Shown: in pieces, positions 4,614-9,757 of the stretch
Position numbering within the stretch: position 1 is the first letter of the stretch
How the letters are laid out: each line of letters opens with the position of its first letter
From: Streptomyces sp. CA-278952
GTDB lineage: Bacteria; Actinomycetota; Actinomycetes; Streptomycetales; Streptomycetaceae
Assembly: GCF_028747205.1 (NCBI RefSeq)
Contig: NZ_CP112880.1
Coordinates: 310,001-374,000, forward strand
Direction of reading: 5' to 3'
Length of the DNA stretch: 64,000 bases
Position numbers and translations under genes: made by a program
The notes under the pieces: generated by a model
Told to the model about the DNA's origin: nothing
Database searches by the model: none
Seen by the model: only the letters and a program-made list of their open reading frames with translations

Positions 4614-5813
4614 TCAGTGTCCGGCGACGACGCCCGACAGCTCGTTGGTGCTCTTCGGCAGGGTGACGGAGGTGAGCTTCTTCCCCGTCTCCACGTCGAG
4701 GGCGTGCAGCGTCTTCTTGCCGGGTTCGGAGACGTAGGCGACGTGTCCGCGCACGAACAGGGTGGGCCGGGCCTGCTGCCAGTCCAGCGGCTCCTGCCAT
4801 GCGCCCACGACGGGGATCTTCTTCTCGATCCTGCCGGTGTCCGGGTCGATGACGTGAAGGGCGCCGTCAGTGCCGAGGACGAGGGCCTCGCCGTGCGGGC
4901 CGCGGGCCAGTGAGCGGAAGGAGTAGCTGGTGCCGAGTTCGACCAGGCGCAGCTTCTTCTTCTCGGTGTCGATGAGGGAGACGCGGGTGGGGCGTTCCAG
5001 CTCGGCCTCGGGGTCGGTCTTGTAGTCACCCAGCAGAACGGGCGAGGCGTCGCTGCCGGCCTGGTTGCCGATGCGGCCGTAGTCGTCCGGGGAATCGATC
5101 TTGGTGAACGTGCCGTCCTTGTAGATCAGGATGCCGTCCTCGCAGCCGACGCCGACGGCTTCGTCCTTGGCGGCGGCCTCACCGTGGACACCGGGGCAGT
5201 CCTCGCTGCGCGCGATCTCCTTGTTGTTCCGGTCCAGCACCAGCGCGCCGGTGCGCTTCTCCTCGGTGCCAAGGGTGCTCAGGAGTCTGCCGTCGGCCAG
5301 CTCGATGGCGACACCGTGGTGCGCCTCGGCGGACGTGTAGGTGCGTCCTGCCGGCTTCTTGCCGCTGGTCAGTGCGGTGGGGTCAAAGACGTTGACCTCT
5401 CCGGTGCCGTCGGTGAAGAGCACGGTCTTCGCGGCGTGGCGGACTACGTGGCCCGGCTTGGCGCCCTTGTACTCGATGTCGGTGAGGGCCTGGCCGGTGG
5501 CGTCCAGGACACGGAATCCGCTGTCGGTGGAGACCATGACGTGGTCCTTGTCGCCTGCGGGGTTGACCCGGTTGAAGCCGGGCAGGTCAATGGTCTCGGT
5601 GAGCTCGAGGCTCTCGCCGTCGAGGATGTAGAGGCCGCCGTCGAAGGTGGCGACCAGCGGCTCCTCGACCGCCGCCGCGGGCGTGGCGTTGGCGGTTTCG
5701 TCGGACTTGGTGTCGGTGGCGGAACCTTCGCCTCCGCAGGCGGTCAGGGCCATGGAGACGGTCAGGGCCAGTGCCGTGCCCGTGAGGGCCCTGCCGCGTA
5801 TCGACTTGTTCAT
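4614..5813 (-). CDS. aztD: AztD-like zinc metallochaperone lipoprotein (paralogue 1)
   Basis: This is a 399-residue lipoprotein. I chose the ATG at 5813 because AAAGGAAC precedes it. The signal peptide ends in a lipobox (LTAC, Cys26) and a seven-bladed-propeller-like repeat pattern follows (IDPDTGRIEKKIPV and similar). In the AztABCD zinc system, AztD is an extracytoplasmic zinc chaperone that loads AztC. This copy keeps the AztD hallmarks HHGVAIELADGR and CPGVHGEA. It lies downstream of aztC, separated by 90 bases with a hairpin. A second AztD-like gene lies upstream of aztC, so the locus has two. Confidence 0.82.
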   Translation of the reverse strand: MNKSIRGRALTGTALALTVSMALTACGGEGSATDTKSDETANATPAAAVEEPLVATFDGGLYILDGESLELTETIDLPGFNRVNPAGDKDHVMVSTDSGFRVLDATGQALTDIEYKGAKPGHVVRHAAKTVLFTDGTGEVNVFDPTALTSGKKPAGRTYTSAEAHHGVAIELADGRLLSTLGTEEKRTGALVLDRNNKEIARSEDCPGVHGEAAAKDEAVGVGCEDGILIYKDGTFTKIDSPDDYGRIGNQAGSDASPVLLGDYKTDPEAELERPTRVSLIDTEKKKLRLVELGTSYSFRSLARGPHGEALVLGTDGALHVIDPDTGRIEKKIPVVGAWQEPLDWQQARPTLFVRGHVAYVSEPGKKTLHALDVETGKKLTSVTLPKSTNELSGVVAGH

Positions 5814-5866
5814 CGGGCTGTTCCTTTCTGCACCGCGCGGTGGCGGCATGGGGGTACGACGAACGG

Positions 5867-5884
5867 GCACCCGATGGCGGGTGC
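5867..5884 (-). terminator. Hairpin between aztC and the downstream aztD paralogue
   Basis: GCACCCG-ATGG-CGGGTGC forms a perfect 7-bp stem 20 bases after the aztC stop. It may be a partial terminator or processing site that lowers expression of the last gene. Confidence 0.4.
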
Positions 5885-5903: not shown

Positions 5904-6881
5904 TCAGTCGCCGGTCAGGCTGGTGACCATGGCGGTGGTGTTGGCGCGCATCATCCGCAGGTAGGTGTCCGCGCCCGCGCCCTTGGCGGTCAGGGACTCC
6001 GAGTGGAGTTCGACGACACGGACCCCGCCGCCCATTTCCGCTCGCAGTACCTCGGCGAGCCGTTTGGGCTGGGAGGAGTCGGCGAAGACGGTGCGTACGC
6101 CTGCTCCCTCCATCGCCTCGGTGAGGGAGCGCAGGTCCGAGGAGCTGGGTGAGGCCAGGGTGGTGCCGCTGGGGATGACGGCGCCGATCACCTCGAAGCC
6201 GAAGCGGTCGGCGAGGTAGCCGAAGACGTGGTGGTTGGTGACCAGGGCCCGTTGGTCCGCGGGGACGCGGCCGAGGGACTCCTCCATCCAGGTGGTGAGG
6301 CCGGCGAGTTGCTTCGCGTAGCGGTCGGCGTTGTTCCGGATCGTGCCGGGGTCCACGCCGGTGACGTGCTCGACGACCTGGTCGGCTATCAGGCCGGTGA
6401 CCTTGTGCATCCGGTCGGGGTCCGTCCAGAAGTGCGGGTCGGGCTGCCCTTCCTCGCCCTCGGGGCCGCCGTCGGCGGCGGTGTGGAAGGTGAGCGGGTC
6501 GGCCGCCTCGCCGGCCGCGAAGGTGGCGACACCCGACTCGCGGGCGGCGTCCACGTGCCGCAGGACGTTCTCCTCCAGGCCCAGGCCGTTGTAGACGACC
6601 AGATCGGCCTGTTCCAGCTCGGCGGCCTGCACCGCCGACAGGCCGAAGGAGTGCGGGTCGGCGTTGGGCTTCATCAGGACGGTGACGTCGGCCTCGTCGC
6701 CGACTATCTCGCGGGTGACGTCGCCGAGGATGTTGGTCGTGACGACAATGCTGGGCCGGTCTTCGTCGGTGGTGCAGGCGGTGACGGTCATGGCCGTCAC
6801 GAGGGCGAGCAGACCCGCTATCAGATGTCGCGGGCGAGCGGTGCCCACCCTCGCGCGGTGGTTTACCTCGGTGCGGATCAT
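5904..6881 (-). CDS. aztC: Zinc ABC transporter substrate-binding lipoprotein AztC
   Basis: This 325-residue cluster A-I (ZnuA-like) binding protein has a lipobox cysteine at residue 36 (VTAC). The zinc ligands expected for the family are visible: H77 (NADPHSFG), H150 (DPHFW), H217 (TNHHVFGY) and an acidic residue in FADSS (D268). A Gly/Glu-rich acidic loop (about 137-146) precedes H150. The start codon at 6881 overlaps the stop of the upstream chaperone gene as ATGA, so translation is coupled. It captures Zn2+ outside the membrane for the AztB/AztA importer. Confidence 0.93.
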   Translation of the reverse strand: MIRTEVNHRARVGTARPRHLIAGLLALVTAMTVTACTTDEDRPSIVVTTNILGDVTREIVGDEADVTVLMKPNADPHSFGLSAVQAAELEQADLVVYNGLGLEENVLRHVDAARESGVATFAAGEAADPLTFHTAADGGPEGEEGQPDPHFWTDPDRMHKVTGLIADQVVEHVTGVDPGTIRNNADRYAKQLAGLTTWMEESLGRVPADQRALVTNHHVFGYLADRFGFEVIGAVIPSGTTLASPSSSDLRSLTEAMEGAGVRTVFADSSQPKRLAEVLRAEMGGGVRVVELHSESLTAKGAGADTYLRMMRANTTAMVTSLTGD

Positions 6882-8113
6882 CGTCCGGTCTCCCCCATGA
6901 GGACCGGCTTGACGTCCAGGTCGAAGGAGCGCGCGATCCGCAGGCCGTCGTTGTAGTCGATCTCGAACACCTGCTTGCCCTCGGGGTCGTTGACGTAGGC
7001 GCGGCTGCGGTCGACCTCGATGACGGGGGCGTTGCCGTCGGAGTCGTCCTGCTTCCCCGCTGTCAGCAGTGACTTGGTGCGTGCGGTCTGTTTTCCGGTC
7101 GCGATGTCGTAGCCGTGCACCGATCCGTCGGTCTCCAGAACGAGCAGCGGGGAGCCCTCGCCGGCCGTGTTGACCGCGACGACGGGCCCGGTGTCCACCC
7201 GCTTCCAGGTCCGCTCGGTGACGTCGAGGACCCAGACGGCGCCGGATCCGGCCGGGGCGGTGAGGGTGTCGCTGCCAGGTCGGTGGCGGAAGGCGGTGGC
7301 TCGTTCCTGCGCCGGTACGTGCTCTCCGTACGGGATCTCCTCGGCAGTGAACGAGCCGCCCTGCGCACGCACGAGCAGAGCGCCGTCCGCGCAGCCGACA
7401 ATCACGCCGCGCCGGGTGACGGCGTCCCCCTGGGGCGCTTCGCACGTCACGTCGGGGGAAGCCACGCGTTCGCCCTTGCGGTCGAGGACGACGAGTTGCG
7501 TGGTGCCGCCTTTGGTCACGAAGGCGAGCAGGTGTGCCTCGTACGGCACGACGGCGCCGTTGAAGGTGCCGCGCAGCGTCCGAGGAGTTGCGATCTGCCC
7601 CTTCTCCAGCTTGCTGCGGTCGTAGAGGACGGTGCGGCCGTTCTCGTCGGTCACCGCGGTGACGGCGACGTCACTGCGGATGTGCGCTTGGCTGCCGGCC
7701 GGAAGCCCGCCCACGTCCCGCGTCGGCGCGCTGTAGTAGTGGACGTGGTCTCCGTGATCCACCATCCAGGCGCCGCTGTCGAGCACATGGGTGCCGTCGG
7801 CCGCTTGGAGGTAGCCGAACCTGCCGTCCATGCCCAGCCGGACGGCGTCCTTCACCTCGGCCGTCCTGTGGACCTTGCCGGTGACGAGGTCGAGGACCCT
7901 GGTCTTCCCGCTGCCGGGGTCGTTCAGGAGAAGCCGGGACTGCTGCTCGGCGGCCTCCTTCGCTCCCTCGACGTACCCGTGCGGAGTGGCGGACGGGGGA
8001 TTCGCCGCGGGCCGCCCGGTGTCGGGCTCCTCCCCCGCGCAGCTCGTGGTGAGCAGCGCGGTGAGCACCAGTGCGGCAGATGCCCACGGAGTGACGTTTC
8101 TGCGGACGGTCAT
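6878..8113 (-). CDS. aztD: AztD zinc metallochaperone lipoprotein (paralogue 2)
   Basis: This 411-residue secreted lipoprotein (lipobox TTSC, Cys25) has repeating propeller-blade sequences such as WVLDVTERTWKRV and VHGYDIATGK. A His-rich stretch near the first third (VDHGDHVHYYSAP) matches the AztD pattern for zinc-handling sites. It sits between aztB (21 bases upstream) and aztC (ATGA overlap downstream), the usual operon position for the chaperone that hands zinc to AztC. It is only loosely similar to the other AztD-like protein in this locus, so the duplication is old or the second copy was acquired separately. Confidence 0.86.
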   Translation of the reverse strand: MTVRRNVTPWASAALVLTALLTTSCAGEEPDTGRPAANPPSATPHGYVEGAKEAAEQQSRLLLNDPGSGKTRVLDLVTGKVHRTAEVKDAVRLGMDGRFGYLQAADGTHVLDSGAWMVDHGDHVHYYSAPTRDVGGLPAGSQAHIRSDVAVTAVTDENGRTVLYDRSKLEKGQIATPRTLRGTFNGAVVPYEAHLLAFVTKGGTTQLVVLDRKGERVASPDVTCEAPQGDAVTRRGVIVGCADGALLVRAQGGSFTAEEIPYGEHVPAQERATAFRHRPGSDTLTAPAGSGAVWVLDVTERTWKRVDTGPVVAVNTAGEGSPLLVLETDGSVHGYDIATGKQTARTKSLLTAGKQDDSDGNAPVIEVDRSRAYVNDPEGKQVFEIDYNDGLRIARSFDLDVKPVLMGETGR

Positions 8114-8134: not shown

Positions 8135-8998
8135 TCAGTTGGCTTCGATGAGGGGTGCCGCCGGGGAGCGGACCTGGCTCGTACGGCGGTCGCGCACCCC
8201 GGACAGCACGTGGGAGAGGAAGAACAGGCTCACCGCCAGGGCCGCGACAGTCGCGCCGGCCGCGGTACTCAGATGCCAGGACAGCAGCAGGCCGCCGAAC
8301 GTGGCCGAGGTGCCGACCAGGGCGGCGAGCACCATGACCCCGCGCACGGAGCGAGCCCAGGGCAGAGCGGCCGCCGGCGGTGCGATGAGCAGTCCGAGGA
8401 CGAGCAGCGTTCCCACGATGTGGAACGAGGCGACGATCGCCAGACCGAGCAGGCCGAGGAGCACGGCGTGGGCCAGGCGCGGCCGCAGCCCCAGGGTGTG
8501 GGCCTTGCGCGCGTCGAACGCCAGGGCCAGGAAGGCACGGTGGCCGAGGACCGACACGGCCAGCGCCGCGAGCAAGGCCGCGGCGAGCACGAGGAGATCC
8601 TGCTGCCTGACCGCGAGGACGTCCCCGAAGAGGAATCCGGTCAGGTCGACCGCGAAGGACTGCGAGCGGGACACGATGATCACGCCGAGCGAGAGCATGC
8701 CCACGAACAGCAGCCCGATGCCGGTGTCCTGCGACAGTCTCGGTGTACGGCCCAGGGCGGTGACGCCTGCCGTCATGACGACGGCGCTGACCACCGCGCC
8801 CACCATCAGATTGCCCCCGAGGAGCGCGGCGACCGCGACCCCCGGCAGCAGCCCGTGGGACATGGCGTCACCGAGGAAGGCCATCCCCCTCAGTACTACC
8901 CAGGTGCCCGCCAGGGCGCAGATAGCGGATACCAGCATCCCGCCCCACAGGGCTCGCTGCACAAAGGCCACCTCGAACGGGACCGTCAACCATTCCAT
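8135..8998 (-). CDS. aztB: Zinc ABC transporter permease AztB
   Basis: This 287-residue ABC-3 family permease has about eight hydrophobic segments. The conserved MAFLGDAMSHGLLPG loop, which contacts the ATPase, is near residue 40. The ATG at 8998 has no Shine-Dalgarno; a TAGTGT hexamer exactly 7 bases upstream suggests a leaderless transcript. It is first in a minus-strand operon followed by aztD, aztC and a second aztD. The ATPase gene is divergent and shares the control region containing the Zur box. Confidence 0.93.
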   Translation of the reverse strand: MEWLTVPFEVAFVQRALWGGMLVSAICALAGTWVVLRGMAFLGDAMSHGLLPGVAVAALLGGNLMVGAVVSAVVMTAGVTALGRTPRLSQDTGIGLLFVGMLSLGVIIVSRSQSFAVDLTGFLFGDVLAVRQQDLLVLAAALLAALAVSVLGHRAFLALAFDARKAHTLGLRPRLAHAVLLGLLGLAIVASFHIVGTLLVLGLLIAPPAAALPWARSVRGVMVLAALVGTSATFGGLLLSWHLSTAAGATVAALAVSLFFLSHVLSGVRDRRTSQVRSPAAPLIEAN

Positions 8999-9005
8999 GG
9001 CCCGG

Positions 9006-9029
9006 ACACTACAATGAAAATCATGTTCA
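9006..9029. promoter_or_regulatory. Zur box overlapping divergent leaderless aztB/aztA promoters
   Basis: TGAAAAT-C-ATGTTCA (9015-9029) is a 7-1-7 inverted repeat with 6 of 7 matched pairs. It closely matches the Streptomyces zinc-repressor (Zur) consensus TGAAAATnATTTTCA. On the plus strand TACAAT (9010-9015) lies 7 bases before the ATG at 9023. On the minus strand TAGTGT (9006-9011) lies 7 bases before the ATG at 8998. Zur binding would block both starts. The sequence is observed; repression under zinc sufficiency is known for Zur and inferred here. Confidence 0.85.
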
Positions 9030-9757
9030 ATACACAGCGCCCCTCATCCGCCCCGACCCTCGACCGGACCACCCCCCTCCGCTTTTCGGGGTTGTGCGCC
9101 GGCTATCCGGGACGGCCAGTACTCCATCAAGTCAGCGGTGAGATAAACGAGTTGACCACCACGGTGCTCGTCGGCCCGAACGGCAGCGGCAAGTCGACCC
9201 TGCTCGCCGTACTCGCCGGTGTGATCAAGCCGACATCCGGCGACCTCCTCCGCACCGGCGACCGGCCGCCGGCCTTCGTGCCGCAGCGCGGAGCGGTCGG
9301 CGACACTCTTCCCCTCACCGTTCGCCAGACCGTGGAAATGGGGCGCTGGGGCGAGCGCGGTCCGTGGCGGCGGCTGACCGCACGTGACCACGCGACCGTG
9401 GACGCGGTGCTCGACCGGCTCGGCATCGGCGACCTCGCCTCACGCCAGCTGGGCGAGCTGTCCGGCGGACAGCGTCAACGCACGCTCATCGCGCAGGGCC
9501 TGGCGCAGGAGTCGGACCTGCTACTCCTCGACGAGCCGACCACCGGCCTGGATCCGGAGGCAAGGGAGCGGATCGGCGCGCTGCTGACGGCACTGGTGGC
9601 CGACGGGGTGACGATCGTCCAGGCCACGCACGATCTCGAGGTGGCGCGCGCGGCGGACGCCTGCCTCCTCCTCCGGGACGGCCGCCTCGTCGGGCAGGGG
9701 CGTCCGGACCACGTCCTCACCGCGTCATCGCTGACCCAGGTCTGGCCGACGCTCTGA
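9023..9757 (+). CDS. aztA: Zinc ABC transporter ATP-binding protein AztA
   Basis: This 244-residue ABC ATPase has Walker A GPNGSGKST (51-59), the signature LSGGQRQR, Walker B LLLLDEPTTGLD and the H-loop ATHD, all intact. Two in-frame ATGs exist (9014 and 9023). I prefer 9023 because a TACAAT hexamer ends 7 bases before it and no ribosome-binding site precedes either. The mRNA would then begin with the start codon. It powers the AztB permease encoded divergently. A strong hairpin at 9931-9970 closes the unit. Confidence 0.92.
   Translation: MFNTQRPSSAPTLDRTTPLRFSGLCAGYPGRPVLHQVSGEINELTTTVLVGPNGSGKSTLLAVLAGVIKPTSGDLLRTGDRPPAFVPQRGAVGDTLPLTVRQTVEMGRWGERGPWRRLTARDHATVDAVLDRLGIGDLASRQLGELSGGQRQRTLIAQGLAQESDLLLLDEPTTGLDPEARERIGALLTALVADGVTIVQATHDLEVARAADACLLLRDGRLVGQGRPDHVLTASSLTQVWPTL

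Follow-up and report, generated by a model that had tools for sequence, protein, structure and literature searches.

How can two genes that face away from each other be transcribed, repressed and translated from a control region of only 24 bases? The question is raised by the azt zinc-uptake cluster of Streptomyces sp. CA-278952, in which aztA, on the plus strand, diverges from a minus-strand group with the order aztB-(aztD-like)-aztC-aztD (Table 1). The bases between the start codons of aztB and aztA (8999-9022 in the window, the whole 64-kb stretch of DNA analysed here) are, in our judgement and on the strength of sequence comparison, likely to form a compact divergent promoter that is repressed by Zur and yields leaderless transcripts in both directions.

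The azt locus and its 24-base control region

The assignment to the AztABCD family of systems comes from a profile scan of the window, in which AztA, AztB, AztC and AztD all exceed their curated cut-offs. The AztD-like protein encoded between aztB and aztC scores weakly, with a full AztD encoded beyond, and is possibly a duplicated and diverged metallochaperone. Codon 4 of aztB (8987-8989) is a TTG leucine codon, which is rare in Streptomyces and is kept in 83 of the 94 closest relatives described below.

Table 1. Genes and control elements of the azt cluster, in window positions
Feature	Position	Strand	Evidence or remark
aztD, zinc metallochaperone	4614..5870 (longest frame; true start may be further in)	-	NF038015, 490 bits (cut-off 400)
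aztC, zinc substrate-binding protein	5904..6887	-	NF040870, 382 bits (cut-off 350); PF01297
AztD-like protein, next after aztB and before aztC	6878..8113	-	Weak: 68 bits (cut-off 400)
aztB, zinc ABC transporter permease, predicted leaderless	8135..8998 (start codon 8996-8998)	-	NF040871, 369 bits (cut-off 280)
-10 element TAGTGT of aztB	9011-9006	-	7 bases (9005-8999) before the aztB ATG
-10 element TACAAT of aztA	9010..9015	+	7 bases (9016-9022) before ATG 9023
Probable decoy ATG at the junction of TACAAT and the Zur-type box	9014..9016	+	Inside the -10 element; often out of frame in clade II
Predicted Zur-type operator, 7-1-7 box TGAAAATcATGTTCA (TGAAAAT and ATGTTCA around a central C)	9015..9029	.	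6/7 symmetric pairs
aztA, zinc ABC transporter ATP-binding protein	9023..9757 (likely start ATG 9023)	+	NF040873, 266 bits (cut-off 220), obtained on frame 9014-9757

Direct reading of the window bears out most of what the initial annotation had proposed for this gap, including its length, a TAnnnT hexamer exactly 7 bases before the ATG on each strand, the absence of a Shine-Dalgarno sequence before aztB and before aztA (from 9023), and a single 7-1-7 Zur-type box between the two genes. Leaderless-type promoters are understood here as a -10 hexamer 6-8 bases before a start codon that has no Shine-Dalgarno sequence, and both genes have this arrangement (7 and 7 bases). The hexamers have TA 9010-9011 in common, and by eye there is no convincing -35 element for either promoter. 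The box had also been thought to cover both the hexamer and the start codon of aztA. It does cover the start codon at 9023, together with two bases of a further ATG at 9014, but of the hexamer it covers only the last base. The one broken symmetric pair of the box is 9019/9025, in which 9025 is the G of ATG 9023.

The two-sided pattern is unique within the 64-kb window. In its strict form it never arose in 40 sequences of that length generated with a first-order Markov model, and a relaxed form (gaps of 6-8, ATG or GTG) is expected 0.125 times per 64 kb. The hexamer itself is scarce, with 64 TAnnnT on both strands of the window versus 364 expected from base composition; when followed by ATG, it is found five times at a distance of 6 bases, four times at 7 (two of these being the azt pair), twice at 8 and at most once at every other distance from 3 to 13. 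Another divergent gene pair of the window, encoding a MerR-type regulator (24121, minus strand) and an erythromycin-esterase-family protein (24180, plus strand), also has TAnnnT exactly 7 bases before each ATG (TACCTT and TACGGT), with 58 bases between the starts. As evidence for the azt pattern, the comparison with relatives is stronger than these chance counts.

Probable promoters and operator, and a candidate regulator

Relatives were drawn from 392 genomes of the genus (65 with an AztB match, a divergent aztA match adjoining in 65/65), from a search of 394 genomes of the class (85 with an AztB match, 47 over the cut-off; 48 loci used) and from a named scan in which 80 of 327 confirmed relatives were kept. 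The combined set has 193 rows, 165 of them distinct, and 44 further loci stand outside those numbers. The distinct rows comprise clade I (Streptomyces/Kitasatospora, AztB at least 82% identical to that of the window, n = 94), clade II (AztB 67-82%, n = 46) and more distant loci (<67%, n = 25). Counted without any alignment anchor, a minus-strand TAnnnT lies 5-9 bases before aztB in 94/94, 46/46 and 11/25 of these groups, respectively, and hence in all 140 distinct gaps at an AztB identity of 67% or more, as against 0-1/94, 0-4/46 and 0-2/25 in five-base control bins placed 15-39 bases out. In a 37-locus set the minus hexamer was found in 28 loci, with 0-7 in the control bins. A plus-strand TAnnnT uses the same TA as the minus hexamer in 89/94, 40/46 and 4/25 gaps.

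An anchor expression made of hexamer and operator fits 140 of the 165 distinct rows (137 before it was widened for L077, L125 and L203); it demands the TA and several operator bases, so that the invariance of those columns is no evidence. The rows without a fit are 23 distant loci (AztB 44-66%; six lack an AztA hit in the fetched DNA), a Streptomyces locus whose hexamer and operator are set six bases further apart (L104) and a Saccharopolyspora locus (L224). Position A9006 lies outside the anchor and forms the final T of the aztB hexamer; it is conserved in 89/94 clade I and 46/46 clade II rows, and the information content of columns 9008 and 9009 in clade II is 0.30 and 0.32 bits, respectively. 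On the other strand, the -10 element of aztA in clade I is TACAAT in 83 rows and TATAAT in 11. A Shine-Dalgarno-like tetramer is absent before ATG 9023 in 94/94 clade I rows and before aztB in 139/140. The comparison thus supports leaderless-type promoters on both strands, for aztB in both clades and for aztA in clade I. A fixed 7-base spacing does not hold on the aztB side, where the distance in the 140 anchored rows is 7 bases in 68, 6 in 47, 8 in 24 and 5 in one, and is thus mostly 6-8. Before aztA, the leaderless-type arrangement is seen in 94/94 rows of clade I only. A single locus of the 46 with AztB 67-82% fits a loose hexamer-7-ATG expression. Many relatives have a leadered aztA, and the leaderless form is therefore not general.

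In the 8.2-Mb genome the box pattern TGAAAATNATNTTCA is matched exactly at two places; allowing up to two mismatches raises this to 17 places (25 strand hits), compared with one strand hit for the reversed control. A loose Fur-like pattern, with 194 hits per strand versus 313 for its reversed control, was the wrong motif and was dropped. Among the two-mismatch places are one before the gene of ribosomal protein L32 and another, TGACAGTCATTTTCA, at a znuA gene about 3 kb from the candidate Zur gene (genome 5645732-5646079). The product of this candidate has as its nearest PDB chains 3mwm (E 1.9e-76) and 7vo0, both deposited as putative metal uptake regulation protein and both of which we take to be S. 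coelicolor Zur; the other three Fur-family proteins are a better fit to other solved chains. Elsewhere in the genome, two Zur-type boxes about 4 kb apart (L007 1501-1515, C1:435864; L006 1501-1515, C1:431636) lie near the genes of a PF01497 periplasmic binding protein and of an ABC ATPase (431746-432444), which may form a metallophore uptake cluster under Zur control. A box with two mismatches (L015 1501-1515, C1:4391714) directly precedes the gene of an extracellular solute-binding protein of family 5.

Since the genome encodes four Fur-family proteins, and Fur-family boxes resemble one another, the azt box might be thought to belong to an iron or peroxide regulator of this family instead of Zur. 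The genes at the box, however, are those of the Azt zinc system, and similar boxes stand at znuA and L32 genes, classes listed among Zur targets in the account of PMC2823685, which makes another regulator extremely improbable. The gap could also drive and control aztA alone, aztB then having its own promoter within aztA and not being leaderless. TAGTGT is indeed a weak match to TATAAT, no -35 element was seen by eye, and the hexamer is present in only 11 of the 25 distant loci, yet every closer locus in both clades has it in the anchor-free count, A9006 is kept in 135/140 rows although it lies outside the operator and outside aztA, and aztB almost always lacks a Shine-Dalgarno sequence. Moreover, the permease-first operon cg0042 of Corynebacterium glutamicum is reported to be leaderless by 5' RACE (PMC2823685). 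A separate aztB promoter is for these reasons very unlikely, and a Zur-type operator serving leaderless-type promoters on both strands is the preferred reading.

The probable start codon of aztA and its origin

The initial annotation had placed the start of aztA at ATG 9023 in preference to ATG 9014, a choice that comparison makes more likely to be right. ATG 9023 is found in 94/94 clade I rows and in 0/46 of clade II, where the same position reads ATT in 38/45 and GTT in 7/45, the remaining row (L125) having ATA. Throughout clade I (94/94) the reading frame that begins at 9023 continues unbroken into AztA, and in 73/94 there is no other in-frame ATG, GTG or TTG before the conserved AGY. The main grounds for preferring 9023 are the location of 9014 within the -10 element, the lack of a Shine-Dalgarno sequence before it in the window and its retention out of frame in relatives. 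In clade II, aztA would start downstream, and the Shine-Dalgarno-like motif before the chosen start is strong in 17, weak in 14 and absent in 13 of the 46 rows, with two lacking a candidate; this choice was mechanical and favours starts with a motif, and some choices (e.g., L136) are plainly wrong.

The alternative is that aztA is translated from ATG 9014 on a transcript beginning upstream, inside aztB, ATG 9023 then being an internal methionine codon. ATG 9014 is present in 94/94 clade I and 36/46 clade II rows, and a Shine-Dalgarno-like tetramer or longer precedes it in 33/94 clade I rows (30 weak, 3 strong; none in the window). In 30 of the 36 clade II carriers, however, it is out of frame with aztA and thus kept there for another reason, and a transcript initiated from TACAAT would not contain it. 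Codons 9017-9022 also differ among clade I sequences in an operator-like, exclusively non-synonymous manner (0 synonymous versus 3534 non-synonymous sequence pairs, which are not independent events), against 17571 synonymous and 6561 non-synonymous pairs for codons 2-15 of aztB. The accepted aztA codons 9026-9034 are likewise mostly non-synonymous (796 synonymous, 4935 non-synonymous pairs), so this codon contrast is weak and by itself does not decide against 9014. Translation from 9014 is, taken together, unlikely, and this ATG is probably a by-product of the hexamer meeting the operator.

The predicted start codon at 9023 bears on the symmetry of the operator. The pair 9019/9025 is broken by the G of ATG 9023 in 94/94 clade I rows and intact in 45/46 of clade II, and the pair 9018/9026 is symmetric in 68/94 clade I versus 8/46 clade II rows. 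The commonest number of symmetric pairs is 6/7 in both clades, and the symmetry of 9018/9026 may compensate for the broken pair. When the ATG state is mapped on the AztB tree of 140 rows (a quick method with SH-aLRT support only, drawn with a midpoint root), it changes once, on a branch with support 98. A fuller history can be proposed from these alignments, for and against which we see the balance as even: the start codon would have arisen once, inside the predicted Zur box, in the ancestor of one Streptomyces/Kitasatospora clade, turning an aztA with a Shine-Dalgarno leader into a leaderless gene, after which the same few bases would set two-way transcription, zinc repression and aztA translation, with the polymerase choosing one strand at a time.

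Related layouts are found further away. A search of the family of one class member gave AztB matches in 54/251 genomes. In genus g156, from another family, TAnnnT precedes an in-frame aztA ATG by 7 or 8 bases in all nine matched genomes, the assignment being unsure at one locus, L287, which offers several such ATGs. In the same nine a minus hexamer stands 6 or 8 bases ahead of aztB, and the two hexamers overlap by five bases. This layout of double-leaderless type, with its larger hexamer overlap, suggests repeated evolution, and judged by inspection, with no tree, the arrangement seems to have arisen more than once. Genus g73 (L259, L262, L267 and L273) may have a leaderless aztA too; its hexamer is ambiguous and it was left out of the counts. 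Six named Nocardia loci (L188, L195, L200, L233, L239 and L243) are leadered, with a GAGGTG site.

A proposed two-way switch and its known counterparts

In the proposed model, the overlap of the opposite-strand -10 elements at TA 9010-9011 would allow RNA polymerase to open the DNA in either direction, one at a time, and both transcripts would begin at the start codon or within a base or two of it and be translated as leaderless mRNAs. Counted from the predicted starts, the box extends from about -8 to +7 of aztA and from -17 to -31 of aztB, so that one occupied operator would block both directions. When zinc is present, Zur would sit on the box and keep both directions off; when zinc is absent, Zur would leave and both would be open. 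If this is correct, the azt gap is a very small two-way switch contained on one 60-bp fragment, and a single-origin case in which Shine-Dalgarno-led translation gave way to leaderless translation through a start codon gained inside a repressor site. It would also carry a warning for annotation, as an ATG kept in 94/94 relatives (9014) can be the by-product of a DNA element and the wrong gene start.

Several parts of this arrangement have counterparts. The transporter and metallochaperone families are those of AztABCD of Paracoccus denitrificans, as described in PMC6689063 and PMC7463823. In S. coelicolor, TANNNT is reported for 80.4% of 3570 transcription start sites, and 21% of the primary ones are leaderless (PMC4895711); the azt genes resemble such leaderless genes in their TANNNT -10 motif and in a start codon predicted to be at +1, and differ from those described there in that the pair faces apart and has two -10 bases in common. 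Bidirectional promoters, defined by start-site pairs 7-25 bp apart (PMC10268837), with 18 bp as the commonest distance and 10 and 23 also common (PMC12825309), likewise have overlapping -10 elements on the two strands, and polymerases cannot bind them in both directions at once (PMC10268837, PMC12825309). The predicted azt start sites are 25 bp apart, at the edge of that definition (23-26 in clade I). Such promoters have been described in E. coli and Salmonella and stated for all prokaryotes, the second RNA often being antisense (PMC12825309, PMC10268837); unlike those accounts, both azt RNAs would be leaderless messages controlled by a single repressor.

The closest counterpart is found in C. 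glutamicum, as reported in PMC2823685, where cg0042-cg0041-cg0040 (znuB2-znuA2-secreted protein) diverges from cg0043 (znuC2) over a 29 bp gap in which one Zur motif can serve both directions. The transcript starts of cg0042 and cg0043 are given as the A of their ATGs (for cg0043 by prediction, according to the figure legend), and a Zn-dependent Zur gel shift and derepression in a zur mutant are reported in the same source. Among the control genomes, C. glutamicum alone exceeds the AztB cut-off, its match being, as we infer, cg0042. In both organisms very few bases, with one Zur-type motif, separate a permease operon from a divergent ATPase gene, in a similar gene order; the gaps (24 versus 29) and the operator letters differ. 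Compared in this way with the published description, the Streptomyces azt gap looks like a well-supported further example of the Corynebacterium-type switch and not a new kind. What it would add to cg0042/cg0043, as known from that description, are -10 elements that share two bases (TA) and a start codon that arose within the operator.
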